From the NCBI GenBank assembly GCA_012719295.1, contig JAAYAQ010000140.1:1-32309 (forward strand): DNA of 32,309 nt, in the 5' to 3' direction. The DNA comes from Candidatus Hydrogenedentota bacterium. GTDB taxonomy: Bacteria > Hydrogenedentota > Hydrogenedentia > Hydrogenedentales > SLHB01. This document shows positions 15,594 to 32,309 of the stretch, one piece after another; position 1 is the first letter of the stretch, and every line of letters begins with the position of its first letter. The notes under the pieces are model-generated. The model worked only from the letters and a program-made list of their open reading frames with translations. It ran no database searches and was not told where the DNA came from. Both the position numbers and the translations under genes were made by a program.

Positions 15594-16061
15594 ATGTCAT
15601 TGATGACCGCAAAAACACCCCGGAACGGGGTGACGCTCCTCGCAGCGGCGCTCCTGGTATTCGCCATGGGTCCCGCGCAGTCGGCGTGCCTGTGCGGCAT
15701 GCCCGAGCACAGTGCGTGCACATCCCCTGCGTCCAGAGATGCCGCTTCATCCCCCGAGGCCTGTGTCTGCTGCGCCCCGGAGACCCCGGAACCGGCCGGT
15801 TGCGGGCCCCACGCCTCGCCGGGCGCGGACATCCACCGCTGCGATTGCGCGGCAAGCGCGCCGCAGGCCGACACCGCCGTCTTGACCGCCGCGACGGCGC
15901 CGTCCTCGCCCAAACCGATTGCGCCCATGCTTCCTGCCGGCGCCCCTCTGGCGCCGCACCCTGATCAGGCGGCCATCCACCGCGGTGGAGCCCCGGAGGA
16001 TGCCGGCTCGGCCGCCCCCCCACCCCCCTCGTATCTTCTGGCGTGCGCATTCCTGATCTAA
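15594..16061 (+). CDS. Small exported cysteine-rich protein, first gene of metal-efflux operon
   Basis: 155 residues; family not recognised. A signal peptide (hydrophobic VTLLAAALLVFAMGP, likely cleavage after AQSA) is followed by nine cysteines in about 60 residues, arranged as CLCG, SAC, CVCC, GCG and CDC, with some His. A Pro/Ala-rich spacer follows and then a short hydrophobic end, SYLLACAFLI, with a tenth Cys. The open frame begins far upstream at 14160 as the shadow of the oxidoreductase; ATG 15594 is chosen from AGAGAGG six bases before it and the signal peptide. Position (140 bp before the CusB gene) and composition suggest periplasmic binding or sensing of thiophilic metal ions such as Cu(I) or Ag(I). 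This is inference; no known chaperone motif was recognised. Confidence 0.75.
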   Translation: MSLMTAKTPRNGVTLLAAALLVFAMGPAQSACLCGMPEHSACTSPASRDAASSPEACVCCAPETPEPAGCGPHASPGADIHRCDCAASAPQADTAVLTAATAPSSPKPIAPMLPAGAPLAPHPDQAAIHRGGAPEDAGSAAPPPPSYLLACAFLI

Positions 16062-16201: not shown

Positions 16202-18223
16202 ATGAAAACCATGAAGCCAACGCCTCGCCACGCCTGGCCCTATCTGAAGGCCGGAGCCATTGGGCTGGCCCTGCTAATAACGTTCTGGCTGGGCTACGTG
16301 TTACGCGGACCCGCGGCGCCCCCTTCCGCGGGCCCGGGCCATGAGCATGCCGCGGATGCGCAGGCCGGACAGCAGATCTGGACCTGTTCGATGCATCCCC
16401 AGATCCGCCAGAACAAGCCCGGTCAATGTCCCATCTGCGGGATGGATCTCGTCCCGGTAGCGGCGTCCAGCGATGCGGTTGCGGGACCGCGCGAATTCGC
16501 CGTCAGCGAGGGCGCGAAAGCCCTCATGAACATCGAGACGGCGGAGGTCACGCGGCAGTTCGTTACCCGCGAGGTCCGCATGATCGGCAAGATCGACTAC
16601 GACGAGACGCGCCTCGCCTACATCACCGCGTGGGTCCCCGGCCGGCTCGACCGCCTGTACGTGGATTACACGGGCATTCGCGTCAATCAGGGCGATCACA
16701 TGGTGCGCCTCTACAGTCCGGAGCTGCTCGTCGCGCAGGACGAGCTGCGCCGGGCGGCGCGGGCCATCAGCGAGATGCCCGCAAACGCCCCGGACGCCTT
16801 GCGCCGTACGGCCGAGGCCACCCGCAACGGGGCCCGGGAGAAACTGCGCCGGTGGGGGCTGGCCAACGCCCAGATCGAAGACGCCGAGAACCGGGGCATT
16901 GCGTCGGATCACGTCACCATCTACGCGCCCATGGGCGGCACGGTAATCCGCCGCGACGGCCAGGAAGGCATGTACGTCGACCAGGGCACGCGGCTCTACA
17001 CCCTCGCCGACCTCGAACACCTCTGGGTGAAACTCGACGCCTACGAGTCGGACCTCCCCTGGCTGCACTACGGGCAGAAGGCCCACTTCACCACCGAGGC
17101 GTATCCGGGCGAGGAATTCGAGGGACGGATCGCCTTCATCGATCCGTTGGTTGACGCCGTAACGCGCACCATTGACGTGCGGCTGGCCGTGTCCAATCCC
17201 GACGGGAAGCTGAAACCGGAGATGTTTGTCCGGGCCGTCGTACGCGCGCAACTGGCTACGGGCGGCCGCGTGATGGATCCCGAGCTGGCGGGGAAATGGA
17301 TCTCCCCCATGCACCCCGAGATCATTAAGGACGGCCCCGGTACCTGCGACATCTGCGGGATGGCGCTGGTCAAGGCCGAGGAGCTGGGTTACGTGCCCGC
17401 CAGAATCGATGAGGCTGCCGCCCCGCTGGTGATCCCCGCGACCGCCCCGCTCATCACGGGCGCGCGCGCCGTGGTGTATGTCGAGGTGCCCGGGCGCGAC
17501 CGGCCCACCTACGAAGGACGCGAGATCGTGCTCGGCCCGCGGGCGGGCGAGTTCTACCTGGTAGGCAGCGGCCTGAACGAAGGCGAGCGCGTGGTGGTCC
17601 GGGGCAACTTCAAGATCGACAGCGCCCTCCAAATCCAGGCCCGGCCCAGCATGATGCTGTCCGAGCATGAGTCCCGTACAGCTGAACCCGCCCGGCAGAA
17701 AACGGACCATCACGAACCGGTTCACGACGCGCCCGAATCGTTCCGCACCGGGTTGCGCGCGGTGTATGGCGCGTACACGCACCTCGTCGCGGCCTTGGCG
17801 GCCGACAAGTTCGACACCGCAAACGCAAGCGTGGAAGAACTGTCCGCCGCATTCGCGGAGATGGATGCCGGGGCCCTGGACGCCGCGCAACGCCAGGCCT
17901 GGGACGCCGCCGAGAGGGCCGTGCGTGAGGGCCTGGTGCACATGGAGCAGGCCAAGGCCATCGAGGACGTGCGCCGAGCCCTGCCTGGCATCACCGGGGG
18001 TCTGGCCGCGGCCATTGAAGTCTACGGGATCGCGGAAGGCCCGCCCGTCTACCGCGCCCACTGCCCCATGGCGCTTGATGGCAAAGGCGCCGACTGGCTT
18101 CAGCCGGATACGCCCATCCGCAACCCCTATTACGGCAGCGCGATGCTCGCGTGCGGCGAACTCACCGGACGCCTGGACGCGCCGGCCCACGGCGGCGCGC
18201 CCGAGGAAGCGGCCCATGAATAG
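16202..18223 (+). CDS. cusB: CusB-type RND periplasmic adaptor with two heavy-metal-binding motifs and DUF3347
   Basis: 673 residues. An N-terminal membrane anchor (~15-35) leads to a heavy-metal-binding motif at ~58-86 (TCSMHPQ...CPICGMDLVP), the membrane-fusion core (~100-360: barrel-sandwich hybrid with alpha-hairpin around EMPANAPDALRR and a beta-barrel), a second metal motif at ~362-390 (SPMHPE...CDICGMALVKAE, lacking the first Cys), a membrane-proximal domain with GLNEGERVVVRGNFKIDS, and a C-terminal DUF3347 (~510-655) with HCPMA, NPYYGSAML and ACGEL. Such adaptors bridge the inner-membrane pump and outer-membrane channel and pass metal to the pump. Length exceeds E. coli CusB (about 400) because of the added domains. 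ATG 16202 follows AGGAG. It overlaps the pump gene by 8 bp. Cu/Ag is the likeliest substrate. Confidence 0.93.
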   Translation: MKTMKPTPRHAWPYLKAGAIGLALLITFWLGYVLRGPAAPPSAGPGHEHAADAQAGQQIWTCSMHPQIRQNKPGQCPICGMDLVPVAASSDAVAGPREFAVSEGAKALMNIETAEVTRQFVTREVRMIGKIDYDETRLAYITAWVPGRLDRLYVDYTGIRVNQGDHMVRLYSPELLVAQDELRRAARAISEMPANAPDALRRTAEATRNGAREKLRRWGLANAQIEDAENRGIASDHVTIYAPMGGTVIRRDGQEGMYVDQGTRLYTLADLEHLWVKLDAYESDLPWLHYGQKAHFTTEAYPGEEFEGRIAFIDPLVDAVTRTIDVRLAVSNPDGKLKPEMFVRAVVRAQLATGGRVMDPELAGKWISPMHPEIIKDGPGTCDICGMALVKAEELGYVPARIDEAAAPLVIPATAPLITGARAVVYVEVPGRDRPTYEGREIVLGPRAGEFYLVGSGLNEGERVVVRGNFKIDSALQIQARPSMMLSEHESRTAEPARQKTDHHEPVHDAPESFRTGLRAVYGAYTHLVAALAADKFDTANASVEELSAAFAEMDAGALDAAQRQAWDAAERAVREGLVHMEQAKAIEDVRRALPGITGGLAAAIEVYGIAEGPPVYRAHCPMALDGKGADWLQPDTPIRNPYYGSAMLACGELTGRLDAPAHGGAPEEAAHE

Positions 18224-21200
18224 CCCGGCCAGCCAGACGCCCCGGCCGCGCGACCTGGGCTGGATAGACCGCGTCCTCTGGTTTTCGCTCAACAACAAGC
18301 TGGCGATCGCGCTGCTCATCGTCTTTTTCGCGGTCTGGGGCATCATGGCGGCCCCGTTCGACTGGGACACCGGCGCGCTCCCCCGCAGCCCCGTGCCCGT
18401 CGACGCCATCCCGGACCTCGGCGAGAATCAGCAAATCGTGTTCACCGACTGGCCGGGCCGGTCTCCCCAGGACGTGGAAGACCAGATCACCTACCCGCTC
18501 ACCGCCGCGCTCCTGGGCGTGCCGGAGGTCAAGACGATCCGGAGCGTCTCGGCGTTCGGGTTTTCGACCGTCTACGTCATTTTCGAGGAGGATGCCGACT
18601 TCTACTGGTCGCGAAGCCGCTTGCTCGAAAAACTTAACAGCCTGCCCGCGGACACCTTGCCCCAGGGGGTCCAGCCCGCCCTGGGACCCGACGCCACCGC
18701 GCTCGGCCAGGTCTTCTGGTACACCCTCGAGGGCCGCGAGCCCGGCGGCCGTCCCGCGGGCGGATGGGACCTCGCCGAACTGCGCAGCATCCAGGACTGG
18801 CTGGTCCGTTACGCCCTCCAATCGGCCCACGGCGTCAGCGAAGTGGCTTCGGTGGGCGGGTTCGTGCAGGAGTATCAGATCGACGTCGACCCGGACGCCA
18901 TGCGCGCCGCCAACATCACGCTCAGCGAGGTGTTTGATGCGGTCCGCGCGTCAAACGTCGATGTGGGCGCGCGCACCATCGAAGTCAACAAGGTCGAATA
19001 CGTGATTCGCGGCCTCGGGTTCATCGAGACGCTCGAAGACATCGAAGCGACCGTCATCAAGGTGGCCGGCAACACGCCCCTGCGCATCAGGGACGTCGCG
19101 CGGGTCTCGCTCGGGCCCGCATTGCGGCGCGGCGCGCTCGACAAGGCCGGTGCGGAGGCCGTGGGCGGCGTGGTGGTGGTGCGCTACGGCGCCAACCCGC
19201 TCGAGGCGATCAAAAACGTCAAAGCGAAGATCGCCGAGATCACACCGGCACTGCCCAGCAAGGCCTTCATCGATCTGTCGAAGGTAGACCGAAGCACCGT
19301 GGAAGCCTTTGCGGAACAGCACGGGTTCGAGGCGTTCGACGGAGCGGGGATCAATCAATCCGCCTGGCTGGACTGGTTGCGCGCGCATGACCGCGACGCG
19401 TGGCCCGGGTGGGCGGTGTTCAGCAAGGTGGAGATCGTCCCGTTCTACGACCGCACGGGGCTGATCTACGAGACCCTCGGCACGCTCAATGTCGCGATCG
19501 TGCTCGAGATCCTGGTGACGATCATCGTCGTGCTCGTCATGGTGCGCCATCTGCGGAGTTCGCTGCTCATCAGCATGCTGCTGCCCCTGGCCGTGCTCAT
19601 GTGCTTCATCGCCATGCGCGTGTTCGAGGTCGACGCCAACATCGTCGCGCTCTCGGGCATCGCCATTGCCATCGGCACCATGGTCGACATGGGGATCATC
19701 ATCTGTGAAAGCATCCTCAAGAAGCTCGACGAGGCCGGTCCCGGCGACAGCCGCCTCGTGGCGGTGTTCGAAGCCTCGAGCGAGGTGGGCAGCGCGGTCC
19801 TGACGGCCGTGGCCACGACGGTCGTGAGCTTCCTGCCCGTATTCGCCATGACCGGCGCTGAAGGCAAGCTGTTCCGGCCGCTCGCGTTCACCAAGACCTT
19901 CGCCCTGGTGGCGTCGGTCATCATCGCCGTCGTGCTGATCCCGCCGATGGCGCACGTGCTGATGGGCGGGCGGCCGTATGGCCTCCGCAAGCGGCGCGTG
20001 CTGAGCCTGCTGGCGGTAGCGGCGGGGCTCGGCGTATGGGTGCTCGCGTCATGGTGGGCCGGCGCGGCGCTTGTCGCGATGGGGCTGTATTATCTCGCGA
20101 GCGACGCCCTTCCCCGGCGCATAACCGGCGCTGCGTCTTCGGTTGCCAACGCGTTCGCGGTGCTGCTCGTGGCGCTGCTGCTCGCCGTGGCGTGGAACCC
20201 CCTCGGGCCCGAACGCGGTTTTGTAAGGAACGCCGTGTTCGTCGGGGCAGCCATCGGCGGATTGCTGGGGCTGTTCTTCGTGTTCCAGCGGTATTACGCC
20301 CGGCTTCTGCGGTGGTTTCTCGACCACAAACCGGTCTATTTGTTCATCGCGCTGGCCGTGGTGCTGGCGGGCGTCACGGCCTGGCTCGGATTCGACCGCG
20401 TGTTCGGATTCGTCCCGGCCGGGCTCGCGCGCGCGGGCGTCCCGTCCGAGCGCATCCGCACTACCCGCATCTGGAGCGCCGCCGCGCACGCCTTTCCCGG
20501 TTTCGGCAAGGAATTCATGCCGCCGCTCGACGAAGGCTCGTACCTCTACATGCCCACCACGATGCCGCACGCGTCGCTCGGAGAGGCCCTCGACGTCCTC
20601 CAGTACCAGGACCAGGCCATCGCCGCGCTCCCCGAGATCGAGTTGGTCGTCGGCAAGATCGGCCGTGTCGAAAGCGCGCTCGATCCCGCGCCCGCCTCGA
20701 TGATCGAAACTGTCATCACCTATAAACCGGAATACATCACCGACGCATCCGGACGACGCATGCGGTTCCGGTACGACCGCGAACACGGCGCGTTTGTGAG
20801 GGACCCCGACGGCCAGTTGATCCCGGATCCGGAGGGGCGGCCGTTCCGGCAGTGGCGCGACGAGATCCGCACGCCGGACGACCTCTGGAACGAGATCGTC
20901 CGCGCGGCCGAGATCCCCGGCACGACCACCGCGCCCAAGCTCCAGCCCATTGCCGCGCGCCAGGTCATGCTGCAGAGCGGCATGCGCGCCCCCATGGGCG
21001 TCAAAATCAAGGGACCCGATCTCGAAAGCATCGAGACCGCCGGCCTCGCGCTCGAACGCCTGCTCAGAGAGGTCCCCAGCGTGGAGCCGGACGCGGTCAT
21101 CGCCGACCGGATCGTCGGCAAACCGTATCTCGAGATCGATATCGACCGCGAGGCCATCGCGCGGTACGGCATCAGTATCCGCCAGGTGCAGGACGTGATC

Positions 21201-22244
21201 GAGGTCGCCATCGGCGGGCAGCCCATCACCACCACCGTCGAGGGACGCGAACGCTATCCCGTCCGCGTGCGGTATCTGCGCGAACTGCGCGACCAGATCG
21301 AGACGCTGGGACAGATCCTCGTGCCCTCGCCCGCCGGCGCCCAGATCCCCCTCGTCCAGTTGGCCGAGATTCGCTACGTGCGCGGGCCCGACGCCATCAA
21401 GAGCGAGGACACCTTCCTGGTCGGGTATGTGCTGTTCGACCGGAAACCCGCGTACGCCGAGGTGGATGTGGTCGAGCAGTGCCGCGCCTGGCTCGAAGAG
21501 AAGCTCTCCTCCGGCGAGCTGCAGTTGCCGCCCGGCGTCAGTTACCAGTTCGCGGGCGCCTACGAGAACCAGGTCCGGTCGCAGAAGACCCTGGCCCTCG
21601 TGCTGCCGCTGGCGCTGTTCATCATATTCATGATCCTCTATTTCCAGTTCCGGTCGGTGCCGACCGCGCTGCTGGTCTTTTCGGGGATCGGGCTCGCGTG
21701 GTCGGGCGGGTTTCTGCTGATGTGGCTGTACGCCCAGCCGTGGTTTCTTGATTTCAGCGTGTTCGGGGCGAACCTCCGGGAACTGTTCCAGGTGCGCGAA
21801 ATCAATCTGAGCGTGGCGATCTGGGTCGGGTTCCTCGCGCTGTTCGGCATCGCCTCCGACGACGGCGTGGTGCTCGCCACGTTTCTCGACCAGAGCTTCG
21901 CGAAACGCCGTCCCGAATCCATTCGCGAAATCCGCGACGCCACCGTGGCCGGCGCCCAGCGGCGCATCCGACCCTGCCTGATGACTACCGCAACCACCAT
22001 CCTCGCCCTGATCCCCGTGCTCACCTCGACAGGACGCGGCGCGGACATCATGGTCCCCATGGCGATTCCGTCGTTCGGGGGCATGCTGGTCGAACTGATG
22101 ACGATCTTTCTCGTGCCCATCCTCTATTGCTGGGTGCAGGAGTTCCGGCTCCGGTGGGGCCGATCCGCCCTGCCCGCACCCCTGGAAACCGAACACGCGG
22201 GCGGTCCGCACGAGCCGTCCGCGGACAAGGAGTACCCCTCATGA
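18216..22244 (+). CDS. cusA: CusA/CzcA-type heavy-metal RND efflux pump, enlarged
   Basis: 1342 residues, versus about 1050 for E. coli CusA. It drives metal export with the proton gradient as part of a three-component pump. Seen: N-terminal VDAIPDLGENQQIVFTDWPG; the TM4 proton-relay aspartate D491 in GTMVDMGIII; D1215/D1216 in GIASDDGVV, where CusA has its TM10 glutamate; and M829 and M918 (PASMIETV, RQVMLQSGM) at the places of two CusA metal-site methionines. Extra material includes ~40 residues before VEIVPFYDRTG, added hydrophobic segments at ~590-690, and a charged loop at ~845-890. Similar insertions occur in large Bacteroidota-type members. The open frame starts at 17667, but ATG 18216 overlaps the adaptor stop and starts the native N-terminus. 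It shares ATGA with the next gene. Confidence 0.95.
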   Translation: MNSPASQTPRPRDLGWIDRVLWFSLNNKLAIALLIVFFAVWGIMAAPFDWDTGALPRSPVPVDAIPDLGENQQIVFTDWPGRSPQDVEDQITYPLTAALLGVPEVKTIRSVSAFGFSTVYVIFEEDADFYWSRSRLLEKLNSLPADTLPQGVQPALGPDATALGQVFWYTLEGREPGGRPAGGWDLAELRSIQDWLVRYALQSAHGVSEVASVGGFVQEYQIDVDPDAMRAANITLSEVFDAVRASNVDVGARTIEVNKVEYVIRGLGFIETLEDIEATVIKVAGNTPLRIRDVARVSLGPALRRGALDKAGAEAVGGVVVVRYGANPLEAIKNVKAKIAEITPALPSKAFIDLSKVDRSTVEAFAEQHGFEAFDGAGINQSAWLDWLRAHDRDAWPGWAVFSKVEIVPFYDRTGLIYETLGTLNVAIVLEILVTIIVVLVMVRHLRSSLLISMLLPLAVLMCFIAMRVFEVDANIVALSGIAIAIGTMVDMGIIICESILKKLDEAGPGDSRLVAVFEASSEVGSAVLTAVATTVVSFLPVFAMTGAEGKLFRPLAFTKTFALVASVIIAVVLIPPMAHVLMGGRPYGLRKRRVLSLLAVAAGLGVWVLASWWAGAALVAMGLYYLASDALPRRITGAASSVANAFAVLLVALLLAVAWNPLGPERGFVRNAVFVGAAIGGLLGLFFVFQRYYARLLRWFLDHKPVYLFIALAVVLAGVTAWLGFDRVFGFVPAGLARAGVPSERIRTTRIWSAAAHAFPGFGKEFMPPLDEGSYLYMPTTMPHASLGEALDVLQYQDQAIAALPEIELVVGKIGRVESALDPAPASMIETVITYKPEYITDASGRRMRFRYDREHGAFVRDPDGQLIPDPEGRPFRQWRDEIRTPDDLWNEIVRAAEIPGTTTAPKLQPIAARQVMLQSGMRAPMGVKIKGPDLESIETAGLALERLLREVPSVEPDAVIADRIVGKPYLEIDIDREAIARYGISIRQVQDVIEVAIGGQPITTTVEGRERYPVRVRYLRELRDQIETLGQILVPSPAGAQIPLVQLAEIRYVRGPDAIKSEDTFLVGYVLFDRKPAYAEVDVVEQCRAWLEEKLSSGELQLPPGVSYQFAGAYENQVRSQKTLALVLPLALFIIFMILYFQFRSVPTALLVFSGIGLAWSGGFLLMWLYAQPWFLDFSVFGANLRELFQVREINLSVAIWVGFLALFGIASDDGVVLATFLDQSFAKRRPESIREIRDATVAGAQRRIRPCLMTTATTILALIPVLTSTGRGADIMVPMAIPSFGGMLVELMTIFLVPILYCWVQEFRLRWGRSALPAPLETEHAGGPHEPSADKEYPS

Positions 22245-23725
22245 TTATCATGCTGCTTGCGGCTGCGTTCGCCGCCACCGGCGTCGAGCCGCCCGACGTC
22301 TACGCCGGAAACGACGAGTTGCGCGGCTACCTGCTCGAAGCCGCCGAAAACAACCCGGCCCTCCTGGCGCGGTACGAAACCTGGCGCGCCGCCCTCGAAC
22401 GCATCCCCCAGGTCACCTCGCTGGACGACCCCATGCTGTCGTATGGCCAGTTCATCCAGTCCGAAGCGGCGCGGGCGCGGATCGCGCTGAGCCAGAAGTT
22501 CCCCTGGTTCGGCACGTTGCGCGCGCGGGGCGACAAGGCCGCCGCGGAAGCCGACGCCGCGCTCCAGGCGTTCTTCTCCGAGCGCAACCGCGTCATTGCC
22601 GAGGTCAAGAAGGCCTATTTCGAGTACGCCTTTCTGGCCGACGCCGTGCTCGTCACCGAGGCGCAGCTCGAAGTCCTCGATTACATGGAAGATGTGGTGG
22701 AGTCGAAGCTCGCCCTCGGCCTGGCCAACCAGGACGAGCTGTTGCGCGTTTCCATCGAGAAAGCCCAGGTGCGCGACCGGCACGACGGCTACCTGCAGAA
22801 CAAACCGGCCCGCATGGCCCGTCTCAACGAGGCCCTGGGACGCGACGTGCTCAGCGAGATCCCGTTTCCGCAGGCCACGCCGCTGCCGCCCGCGCTGCCG
22901 CCGGCGGAAACCGTTCTCGCGCGCGTCGACGAGGCCAACCCGGACCTCAAGGCGCTCGAGCATGTGCTCGAAAGCCGGGAACGCGATATCGAACTCGCGC
23001 GCAAGGAAGGATACCCGGAGTTCACGGCGGGCCTCGAATATGCCGCGATAAGCAAGCCCCGCCAGATTCGTCCCGACCGGGTATCCGCCGACAATCTGGC
23101 CACGGGTTACCGGCTCCTGAACACCTTCACGGGAAGGACGCCGTTCGAACCCGTCAATACCGCCATCGATGCCTATGGACTGGCCACCAGCCGCGAGCCC
23201 ATGAACTATTCCGACGGCGGGGACGACGAGATTATGCTCTCGCTCACGGTGAGCGTGCCGCTCTGGCGGAAACGGATCAAGGCGGGCATCGAAGAGGCGC
23301 GCCTGCTGCACCGTGCCGCCGGGCACGACAAACGCAGCCGTGAACTCGCGTTGCAACGCTCCGCGCGCATGGCGATATTCGAGGTCGAAGACGCGCTGCG
23401 CCGTTACCGCCTGTATCGCGACACCCTCGTTCCCCAGGCCGCGCAAACCTACGAGAGCCTGCAAAGCCAATACTCGACCGCGGCCGGCGGCGCCGATTTC
23501 CTCGATCTGCTCGACAGTGTTCAGACCCTGCTCTCCTTCGAGCTGGAACAGGTTCGGGCGACACGCGACGTGCAGCTCGCCGCGGCCGAACTCGAATTCC
23601 TGATGGGCGGTCCGTGGCCGCGGACCGGCGGCACGGCCGCGCCCGCGAAGGAAAATGCTTCTGATCAGGAGGCAACGTACCGTATCAACGTTCAACGAAG
23701 TGCGCACAACGAAACGGAGGGTTAA
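22241..23725 (+). CDS. cusC: Outer-membrane efflux protein (TolC/CusC family)
   Basis: 494 residues. A short signal peptide (MIIMLLAAAFAATG) is followed by two outer-membrane-factor repeats of long amphipathic helices, for example ALSQKFPWFGTLRARGDKA, VIAEVKKAYFEYAFLADAV and LTVSVPLWRKRIKAGIEEA, motifs typical of metal-efflux OMFs. No lipobox cysteine is visible, so unlike E. coli CusC it is probably not a lipoprotein. It trimerises to form the exit duct of the pump. The start is ATG 22241, overlapping the pump's TGA by 4 bp, with AAGGAG eight bases before it. The next gene follows 3 bp after its stop. Confidence 0.92.
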   Translation: MIIMLLAAAFAATGVEPPDVYAGNDELRGYLLEAAENNPALLARYETWRAALERIPQVTSLDDPMLSYGQFIQSEAARARIALSQKFPWFGTLRARGDKAAAEADAALQAFFSERNRVIAEVKKAYFEYAFLADAVLVTEAQLEVLDYMEDVVESKLALGLANQDELLRVSIEKAQVRDRHDGYLQNKPARMARLNEALGRDVLSEIPFPQATPLPPALPPAETVLARVDEANPDLKALEHVLESRERDIELARKEGYPEFTAGLEYAAISKPRQIRPDRVSADNLATGYRLLNTFTGRTPFEPVNTAIDAYGLATSREPMNYSDGGDDEIMLSLTVSVPLWRKRIKAGIEEARLLHRAAGHDKRSRELALQRSARMAIFEVEDALRRYRLYRDTLVPQAAQTYESLQSQYSTAAGGADFLDLLDSVQTLLSFELEQVRATRDVQLAAAELEFLMGGPWPRTGGTAAPAKENASDQEATYRINVQRSAHNETEG

Positions 23726-23728
23726 CCC

Positions 23729-24382
23729 ATGACGCGAATGATAATGATCCTGTTGGCGGGCGCCGCGGCGCTGGTGGGCAGGGCCGCACCTGCGGGCGAG
23801 ACTTCCCCGCCTTCCCGGGACGGCCTCTACACGCTCGCGACCTGCCCGGTCTCGGGCGCCCGGCTCGGCTCGATGGGCGAGCCGGTGGTCAAAAAGTACG
23901 ATGGGCGCGAGGTGCGCTTCTGTTGCGCGGGATGCGTCCCCACATTCGAGGCGGATAAGGAGACGTACTTCGGCAAGATCGACGCGGCCGTGGTCAAGGA
24001 ACAGAAGAAGCTCTATCCTCTCGACACCTGCCTTGTAAGCGGGCAGAAGCTCGGTTCCATGGGCGAACCCGTCGACAAGGTGTACCGGAACCGGCTCGTA
24101 CGGTTCTGCTGCGCGGGATGCAATGCCACATTCGACGCGGACCCGGCGAAGTACCTCAAGAAGCTCGATGCCGCCATTGTCGAGAAACAGAAAGACGCCT
24201 ACCCGGCCGGGACGTGCGTCGTATCGGGTGAGAAGCTCGGGGCCAAAGGCGAGCCCGTCGACTACGTCGCGGGAAACCGGCTGGTGCGGTTCTGCTGCGC
24301 CGGGTGCATCAAGGAGTTCGAGAAAGCCCCCCGAACATACCTCGACAAGCTCGACGCCATCGCCCCGTCTTCGGGTGAGTGA
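23729..24382 (+). CDS. Exported protein of three TRASH/YHS-like cysteine repeats
   Basis: 217 residues. A signal peptide (~1-22) is followed by three tandem copies of one unit, starting at residues 38, 100 and 162 with an exact 62-residue period. Each begins T-C-x-V-S-G and ends R-F-C-C-A-G-C, with a GEPV segment between and a helical linker after. The Cys pattern (one Cys, ~25 residues, then CC-x2-C) resembles metal-binding TRASH or YHS domains. It closes the efflux operon, 3 bp after the outer-membrane gene, with GGAGGG as ribosome site. Likely role: periplasmic binding or buffering of Cu/Ag and delivery to the pump, a place held by CusF in E. coli (inference). Repeats 1 and 2 are the closest pair and repeat 3 is truncated to ~56 residues. 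Confidence 0.85.
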   Translation: MTRMIMILLAGAAALVGRAAPAGETSPPSRDGLYTLATCPVSGARLGSMGEPVVKKYDGREVRFCCAGCVPTFEADKETYFGKIDAAVVKEQKKLYPLDTCLVSGQKLGSMGEPVDKVYRNRLVRFCCAGCNATFDADPAKYLKKLDAAIVEKQKDAYPAGTCVVSGEKLGAKGEPVDYVAGNRLVRFCCAGCIKEFEKAPRTYLDKLDAIAPSSGE

Positions 24383-30122: not shown

Positions 30123-32309
30123 TCACTTCGCGGAAGTCAGTTCCCGGGGTGCCGCGGCCTTCACGCCCGGCACAACCGCGCGGCCGGCGCGGGTCACGTA
30201 ACGCCGCACATCGTCAATACCCAGATACATCGCCGGCACGATAACCAGGGTCACCGCGGTCCCGAACAGAATGCCGAACCCCAGAGACAGCGCCATCGGG
30301 ATCAGGAATTTCGCCTGCCGCGACGTCTCGAAAATCATCGGCGCCAGACCGCCAAACGTGGTCAGCGTGGTCAGCATGATCGGACGAAAACGCTGCACCG
30401 CCGCGGAATGAATCGCGTCGTGGTGCGACAGGCCCTCCTCGCGTTCGCGGAAGTTGGCGAAGTCGATCATCACCAGCGCGTCGTTCACCACCACGCCCGC
30501 CAGCGCCACGATGCCGAACATGCTCGGAATCGACAGATCGTACCCCATTATGAGGTGGCCCAGAAACGCGCCCACAATGCCGAAAGGAATGCTCAGCATG
30601 ACCACCAGCGGCTGGGTGTAGCTCCGGAACGGAATGGCCAGCATCGCGTAGATCGCCATCAGGGCCAGGATGAACGTGACCTTGAGGCTTCCCATGCTCT
30701 CGCGGATCTCCGCCTGGTGCCCTTCAAACGAATACGAGAGCCCCGGACGCTCGCGCAGGAATTCGGGCAGCACGTTCTCCTGAAGGTCGGTGAGCACTTC
30801 CCCGGCGCGGCTGCGCGGCGTGATGTCGGCCGACACTTCGACCACGCGGCGGCCGTTGCGGCGATCAATGGTGGTGTAGGCTCGCCCGCGGTTGATCTCG
30901 GCGATCTCGCGGAACGGCACATAGGCGCCTGCGGGCGTCCGGATCATCAGCGACTGGATCGTATGCTCCGACGAGCGTTCGTCCTCGGGCAGGCGCACCA
31001 TCACCTTGATCTCGTTCCGGCCCCGTTGCTGGCGCAACACCTCGGCCCCATAGAACGCATACCGCACCTGCCGGGCAACATCGCGCGGCGTCAGCCCCAG
31101 GCTCTTGCCTTCCGGCTTCAACGTAAAGTCGAGCTGTTCCTTGCCGGGCTGGAAACCATCGTCCACGTCGTCCACGCCGGGGTACGTCGCGAGGATTTCG
31201 GCCAACTCGCCGCTCGCCTGTTCGAGCATGTCAATGTTGCGGTGGCTGAGCTCGACCGCCAGCGGCCGGCCCCAGCTTCCCGGCCCGCCGGAATCCGACG
31301 CGAACCGCAGGTATTCCACGCCCGGAACCTCGCCCACGGTCGCGCGCCACCGTTGCGCGAATTCCGACGTGCTCATGATCGCTTCGCGGATGTCGGGCTC
31401 GGCGAGTTCGACGCGCATCCGCCCCGTGTGGCTCCCCGTCATGCCAATGTCGGCCGTGATCGACACCACCAGCTCCGGATGACCCGACTCCGCAATGACC
31501 TTCTCCGCACCCGCCTGAAGACGGTCCATGATGGCTTCGGTCTTCGCGACCGGCGAGCCGTACGGCAAGACCACCTGCGCGTCGGCATAGTCCGATTCGA
31601 TGATGGGAAATTGCTGGAAGCCCATCCGGCCGCTCAAGGCATACGACAGGCTCAGCGCAAGCGCGCCAATACCCACCGCGATCGTGATGTACCGGTGCCG
31701 CAGCGCATATTCCAGCGCCGGGCCGTAGTAGTCTCGCACCCAGTGCAGAAACCGGCGGCTGAACGCCTGCTGTTTCCCGTGCAGCCAGCGCTTGATGCCC
31801 TTTCGCGCCCGGTCCTGATGATGCGCCAGCTGCGAGGGCAGAACGTACAGGCTCTCGATCAGCGAGATCACAAAAACCACGCACACCACCACGGGGATCA
31901 TCTGAAACGTCTTGCCAACGTACCCCGGAATGAAATAAATGGGCACGAACCCCACAATATTCGTCAGCACGCTGAAGATGACCGGCGACGCGACTTCCCG
32001 TGTGCCGCGAATCGCCGCCTCGATGAACGGCAGGCCTTCCTGATGATAATAGTAGATGTTCTCGCCCACCACGATGTTGGTGTCCACCACGATCCCCAGC
32101 GCGATGATGAAGCCGAACAGCGACATCATGTTGATCGTCACGTCGCCCGCCGGAAGAAACAGAAAAGAGCCCATGAACGATACCGGCACGCCCATCATGA
32201 CCCAGAACGCCAGGCGCGCTTCCAGGAACACGCCCAGCAGCACCAGTACCAGCACCAGCCCCAGGACACCGTTCTTGACCAGCAGATCGACGCGCTGGCG
32301 GTAGGTTTC
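30123..32309 (-). CDS. HAE1-type RND efflux permease, C-terminal part (N-terminus beyond window)
   Basis: About 728 residues are visible; the frame is open to the right edge, so roughly the first third is missing. It is an inner-membrane, proton-driven pump of the hydrophobe/amphiphile type. Seen: GIVVDTNIVVGEN (TM4), in which the second of AcrB's paired aspartates is threonine; a central periplasmic region (RQVRYAFYGAEVLRQQRGRN); GVVVNDALVMIDF (TM10); and the C-terminal RFRPIMLTTLTTFGGL segment. A short cytoplasmic tail ends in TSAK. This is a different subfamily from the CusA pump at 18-22 kb. The adaptor and outer-membrane genes, if linked, would be upstream beyond the window. The stop is 110 bp before fprA. 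Confidence 0.93.
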   Translation of the reverse strand, partial: ETYRQRVDLLVKNGVLGLVLVLVLLGVFLEARLAFWVMMGVPVSFMGSFLFLPAGDVTINMMSLFGFIIALGIVVDTNIVVGENIYYYHQEGLPFIEAAIRGTREVASPVIFSVLTNIVGFVPIYFIPGYVGKTFQMIPVVVCVVFVISLIESLYVLPSQLAHHQDRARKGIKRWLHGKQQAFSRRFLHWVRDYYGPALEYALRHRYITIAVGIGALALSLSYALSGRMGFQQFPIIESDYADAQVVLPYGSPVAKTEAIMDRLQAGAEKVIAESGHPELVVSITADIGMTGSHTGRMRVELAEPDIREAIMSTSEFAQRWRATVGEVPGVEYLRFASDSGGPGSWGRPLAVELSHRNIDMLEQASGELAEILATYPGVDDVDDGFQPGKEQLDFTLKPEGKSLGLTPRDVARQVRYAFYGAEVLRQQRGRNEIKVMVRLPEDERSSEHTIQSLMIRTPAGAYVPFREIAEINRGRAYTTIDRRNGRRVVEVSADITPRSRAGEVLTDLQENVLPEFLRERPGLSYSFEGHQAEIRESMGSLKVTFILALMAIYAMLAIPFRSYTQPLVVMLSIPFGIVGAFLGHLIMGYDLSIPSMFGIVALAGVVVNDALVMIDFANFREREEGLSHHDAIHSAAVQRFRPIMLTTLTTFGGLAPMIFETSRQAKFLIPMALSLGFGILFGTAVTLVIVPAMYLGIDDVRRYVTRAGRAVVPGVKAAAPRELTSAK

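Follow-up and report, generated by a model that had tools for sequence, protein, structure and literature searches.

In E. coli the periplasmic carrier CusF uses Met, His and Trp ligands, and how bacteria that lack CusF deliver Cu(I)/Ag(I) to CusBA is, to our knowledge, still not settled. The window analysed here, a stretch of 32,309 nucleotides from a Candidatus Hydrogenedentota bacterium (contig JAAYAQ010000140.1), raises this question because its Cus-type genes are followed by one for a putatively exported protein with three cysteine-rich TRASH/YHS units (triple-TRASH). The preliminary description had proposed that this protein is a dedicated thiol-based replacement for CusF. Does it take that place?

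The features of the locus are collected in Table 1. The genes of CusB, CusA and CusC overlap by a few bases. Between the last base of the CusC stop codon (23725) and the ATG of triple-TRASH (from 23729) lie 3 bp, the gap after the outer-membrane gene described before. These overlaps and this gap suggest that the four genes form a single operon with triple-TRASH last. A promoter scan at the operon found one candidate (1.1 expected from shuffles), and a terminator scan gave a result only slightly above shuffles. The small Cys-rich reading frame at the head of the operon recurs in another genome (G022; L021:17931-18404), where a copy with 55% identity occupies the corresponding position.

Table 1. 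Coordinates of the Cus-type genes, the triple-TRASH gene and their parts in the window
Feature	Position	Strand	Remarks
Small exported-looking Cys-rich ORF, heads operon	15594..16061	+	155 aa, 10 Cys; no Pfam match
CusB-type periplasmic adaptor, two HMBD and C-terminal DUF3347	16202..18223	+	Pfam HlyD_D23 1.8e-68, HMBD 1.8e-27 (2 stretches), DUF3347 5e-9
First HMBD of CusB, residues 60-86	16379..16459	+	
CusA/CzcA-family RND pump	18216..22244	+	1342 aa; TIGR00914 752 bits, cut-off 701
CusC/TolC-type outer-membrane factor	22241..23725	+	Pfam OEP 2.8e-35
Exported triple TRASH/YHS protein (export predicted)	23729..24382	+	217 aa, 12 Cys
Putative signal peptide, residues 1-22	23729..23794	+	A-P-A before likely cleavage site; read from sequence
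TRASH unit 1	23825..24010	+	C39, C65, C66, C69
TRASH unit 2	24011..24196	+	C101, C127, C128, C131
TRASH unit 3	24197..24379	+	C163, C189, C190, C193

The residues that bind Cu(I) in E. coli CusA (M573, M623, E625 and M672; PMC8092243) are all kept in the window CusA when it is aligned with 3t51 (ligand numbers are the 3t51 chain numbers minus 7). The locus thus contains a CusA-family RND pump with a Cu(I) site, an adaptor and an outer-membrane factor, the set that defines a CusCBA pump operon, and given the retained ligand set Cu(I)/Ag(I) is the best guess for the pump substrate. The window CusA is longer than its E. coli counterpart (about 1050 residues), and three insertions (residues ~348-405, 580-763 and 839-875) account for the additional length; of these the middle one is hydrophobic and perhaps forms extra membrane helices. 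A second, partial RND permease runs off the window end (30123-32309, minus strand); it was matched by the CusA query and has the look of the multidrug (HAE) type.

In the source MAG (Candidatus Hydrogenedentes, about 94% complete) no CPx-type ATPase or CopA was seen, and the sole P-type ATPase found (L169; G000:C34:3950-4540) looks like a P2-type without CPx in the frame read. Since no CopA was seen, the Cus operon may be the only Cu(I) exporter of this genome. No YHS-type protein besides triple-TRASH was found in the same MAG.

The N-terminus of triple-TRASH, MTRMIMILLAGAAALVGRAAPA, reads by eye as a Sec signal peptide, and residues 1-29 of the structure model have low confidence. In the rest of the protein two motifs recur with a period of exactly 62 residues: TC-x-VSG (first residue 38, 100 and 162) and FCCAGC (64, 126 and 188). 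Self-identity at a shift of 62 amounts to 75 residues, against a best value of 28 in 2000 shuffles with all shifts tried. The three exactly spaced copies of a 62-residue unit claimed earlier are thereby confirmed, and their pairwise identities are 39/62, 35/61 and 28/61. Each unit contains four cysteines in the pattern C-x25-C-C-x2-C and there are none outside the units. Judging from this cysteine count, three metals per protein are possible.

The assignment of these units to TRASH/YHS, also made in the preliminary description, is supported by Pfam scores above cut-off for the whole protein (YHS 1.5e-11, 44.5 bits, cut-off 30.3; TRASH_HVO_1752_C 4.9e-9, 36.6 bits, cut-off 27; Arc_trans_TRASH 30.4 bits, cut-off 27) and by fold matches; units taken singly score below cut-off. 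The C-terminal knuckle F-C-x3-C is present as FCCAGC in all three units. In the first knuckle, C-x-V-S-G, a serine sits where the second ligand of YHS would be. The Ser of C-P-V-S-G precedes F-C by 23 residues, the distance that separates the Cys of classic YHS from its F-C and that also occurs in a YHS-type P-ATPase (L020), and by this spacing the first Cys appears to replace the Asp of the classic YHS motif D-P-V-C-G, while Ser replaces its Cys.

Searches of PDB sequences with phmmer and profiles gave nothing significant for triple-TRASH, so folds were compared instead. The full-length model had poor Foldseek scores and one unit was therefore modelled alone (AlphaFold2, built from 13 units; pLDDT 82), resulting in a beta hairpin followed by two helices. 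All of the 50 best PDB matches of this model are YHS-bearing diiron hydroxylases, L24e-type ribosomal proteins or the TRASH domain of ZMYM5. The YHS-bearing ones are phenol, toluene and methane monooxygenases, with TMq values of at most 0.62 and an rmsd of 2.2 A for 2inp. Because the Foldseek E-values are weak (all at least 0.22), the TRASH/L24e-like fold of the model is taken as agreement with the family assignment and not as proof. No CusF is found among the Pfam matches or the fold matches listed, in line with the earlier claim that the two proteins are unrelated.

The motif cysteines, which the preliminary description had expected to be conserved, are kept in at least 71 of 81 homologues in units 1 and 2 and in at least 73 of 77 in unit 3. 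For the columns of the C-terminal knuckle the counts of homologues with Cys are 71-79 of 81 or 73-76 of 77, and for the first position of the first knuckle they are 77/81, 80/81 and 77/77 (units 1-3). Among Cus-linked copies each motif Cys is retained in at least 17 of 18 or 18 of 20. The number of modules per chain varies from 1 to 4. Two homologues (L031 and L033) lost the CC pair of unit 2 and have a long His-rich C-terminal tail; the gene of L031 lies directly after cusA. Four proteins of the Planctomycetota sample (L148, L151, L153 and L167) have four CC-x2-C units, the N-terminal one starting with MCPIGKE, and three of them are encoded directly after cusA.

Four conserved cysteines per unit could also serve another metal. 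The TRASH domain of L24e binds Cd(II) through four Cys (PMC4626032), and a triple-TRASH protein acting in a similar manner would be a Zn/Cd/Hg or general soft-metal binder. Such a role is improbable: the CusA encoded alongside retains the triad for Cu(I)/Ag(I) together with its Glu, and Ser takes the second Cys position of the first knuckle of classic domains, which leaves a site of three to four thiolates including adjacent cysteines.

A search for CusF (PF11604) in 68 genomes of Hydrogenedentota gave no match, whereas the E. coli control was recovered. A Planctomycetota-centred sample of 294 genomes includes 12 with a match, and several of these matches are weak. Three genomes (G311, G339 and G347) contain a CusF match and triple-TRASH in different places, and the two are therefore not strictly exclusive. 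The missing CusF alone does not show a replacement by triple-TRASH, because it is missing across the phylum in genomes with or without the triple-TRASH gene.

Adaptor fusions link the module to the pump. One CusB (L072) carries a C-terminal TRASH unit of the type found in the window (L072:5916-6098; YHS 2.2e-9), and another (L158:360-2435) ends in a different YHS/TRASH-like domain. In Cupriavidus metallidurans, SilB ends in a CusF-like metallochaperone domain (PMC4446572). The occurrence of free and fused TRASH forms thus parallels that of CusF.

Triple-TRASH is present in 41 of 68 Hydrogenedentota genomes (E <= 1e-20) and in 42 of 294 genomes of the Planctomycetota-centred sample (E <= 1e-25), with further copies in Vicinamibacteraceae (L073) and on plasmid pPSMK1 of Phycisphaera mikurensis; a single-protein scan of genome contigs with triple-TRASH gave three loci. 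Of 86 copies, a set which includes near-duplicate relatives and three loci taken from direct searches and not from the samples (L072, L073 and L094), 20 have a Cus component on the same strand within 2 kb, 11 more have one within 7 kb, and 55 have none. When only loci flanked by 3 kb or more in each direction are counted, the numbers become 16, 8 and 30. The 20 close copies belong to Hydrogenedentota, where Cus-adjacent copies span several families, Planctomycetota and Acidobacteriota, and one is on a Phycisphaera plasmid. Gene order differs: triple-TRASH is last after the pump genes in the window and in L072, L148, L153 and L167, and first before them in L073, L074, L076 and L094. On pPSMK1 the gene, labelled 'hypothetical protein' in one RefSeq record, directly precedes TolC, the adaptor, the RND pump and a multicopper oxidase; the plasmid also carries a CsoR-type regulator.

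In the Hydrogenedentota genomes with CusA, 6 of 32 triple-TRASH copies are close to CusA, compared to 0.17 expected within 10 kb from the sizes of the genomes, a statistic that takes no account of phylogeny. Triple-TRASH occurs in 25 of 29 Hydrogenedentota genomes with CusA and in 16 of 39 without it (p = 1.7e-4, with relatedness likewise ignored). A quickly built tree of 81 copies requires 15 changes of the Cus label, at least five of which are forced by strongly supported branches, and this implies that the Cus association was gained or lost several times. One group of 17 copies that has weak support, almost all of them from Hydrogenedentota, is entirely without Cus neighbours.

A scan of 97 proteins encoded next to orphan copies led to rejection of the possibility that these copies belong to other metal loci, as the neighbours were miscellaneous. 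Most of the 25 commonest neighbour families listed for these proteins are unrelated to metals; the metal-related entries are one Cu-oxidase_4 and one P-type ATPase. The 97 proteins include five of the Exo_endo_phos family and four T2SSF, and their recurrence suggests conserved neighbours in some orphan lineages.

The expectation that homologues would mostly be found in metal-efflux operons largely did not hold: for 55 of the 86 copies the survey within 7 kb revealed no Cus component, and their neighbours are mixed. The triple-TRASH family is broader than Cus and was recruited to Cus operons repeatedly. The proposal of a dedicated CusF replacement survives in part. It is favoured by the recurrent Cus linkage in three phyla, the two CusB-TRASH fusions and the full Cu(I) ligand set of CusA, and it is possible, but weakened by the many orphan copies.

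In the oxidising periplasm neighbouring cysteines might be joined as disulphides, which would argue against a thiol carrier. CC pairs joined in this way, together with the predominance of orphan copies among miscellaneous neighbours, would fit a thiol-redox or structural disulphide-linked repeat protein that takes no part in metal traffic and lies in the operon incidentally. Little probability is given to this alternative, as both family and fold match metal-binding modules, no thioredoxin-type protein is among the matches listed, and the enrichment near CusA is well above chance.

The varying number of thiol modules per chain (1 to 4), the His-rich tails of L031 and L033 and the many copies away from pump operons would also suit a periplasmic store, which would sequester Cu(I)/Ag(I) or another soft metal stoichiometrically without specific hand-over and would owe its place in the cus operon to co-induction only. 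Storage alone is rather unlikely, since the CusB-TRASH fusions put the module on the pump itself and recruitment beside Cus happened repeatedly.

The preferred explanation, with a probability of roughly 0.55, is that triple-TRASH is a secreted three-module thiol protein which binds periplasmic Cu(I)/Ag(I) and buffers it or hands it to the CusCBA pump. The protein would be exported to the periplasm, where the cysteine thiolates of each unit would bind one soft metal ion, most likely Cu(I) or Ag(I). The metal would then be buffered or passed to CusB/CusA of the pump encoded in the same operon. Cys thiolates would do here what Met, His and Trp of CusF do in E. coli. A wider generalisation is possible but doubtful: free three-module proteins and CusB-fused modules may together be another class of periplasmic chaperones, one that serves Cus pumps with Cu(I)/Ag(I) through thiols, is unrelated to CusF and replaces it in Hydrogenedentota and part of Planctomycetota and Acidobacteriota.

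The TRASH/YHS module is already known, as is, in general terms, the part in metal traffic predicted for it (Ettema et al. 2003, as cited in PMC4626032). In the literature searched, mostly non-subscription journals, no description of a tie between TRASH/YHS and Cus pumps or adaptor fusions was found, nor were experiments on any member of the triple-TRASH repeat family. The presence of TRASH/YHS beside Cus pumps in three phyla and in two adaptor fusions provides a concrete, testable candidate for CusF-less delivery. If it is correct, TRASH/YHS domains would gain a defined role in the metal traffic predicted for them since 2003, according to the account in PMC4626032.

Among known systems, the HMBD (PF19335) of CusB-type adaptors is likewise a small Cys-containing metal-binding module of the same pump system, with two in the window CusB, but it belongs to another Pfam family and is part of the adaptor, not of a secreted tandem-repeat protein. 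Known TRASH/YHS domains (PF04945, PF24273 and PF08394) share with the triple-TRASH unit the F-C-x3-C core, the following F and P-x-x-Y, and the beta hairpin with two helices. They differ from triple-TRASH in that here three 62-residue units are arranged in tandem in a secreted protein, with C-x-V-S-G instead of D-P-V-C-G and an extra adjacent Cys (CC-x2-C). The YHS domain of the Mycobacterium phlei adenylyl cyclase, a member of the same superfamily with a biochemical copper response, is a single domain fused to the cyclase with Asp and three Cys as proposed ligands (PMC4626032). Triple-TRASH resembles the periplasmic Cu(I)/Ag(I) metallochaperone CusF/SilF in being a small exported putative metal carrier which is encoded with CusCBA and exists either as a separate protein or as a C-terminal adaptor fusion (SilB for CusF, L072 and L158 for TRASH). 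It differs from CusF/SilF by having no CusF family match, another fold class (alpha/beta), thiols as the predicted ligands instead of Met/His/Trp, and many members outside Cus operons.
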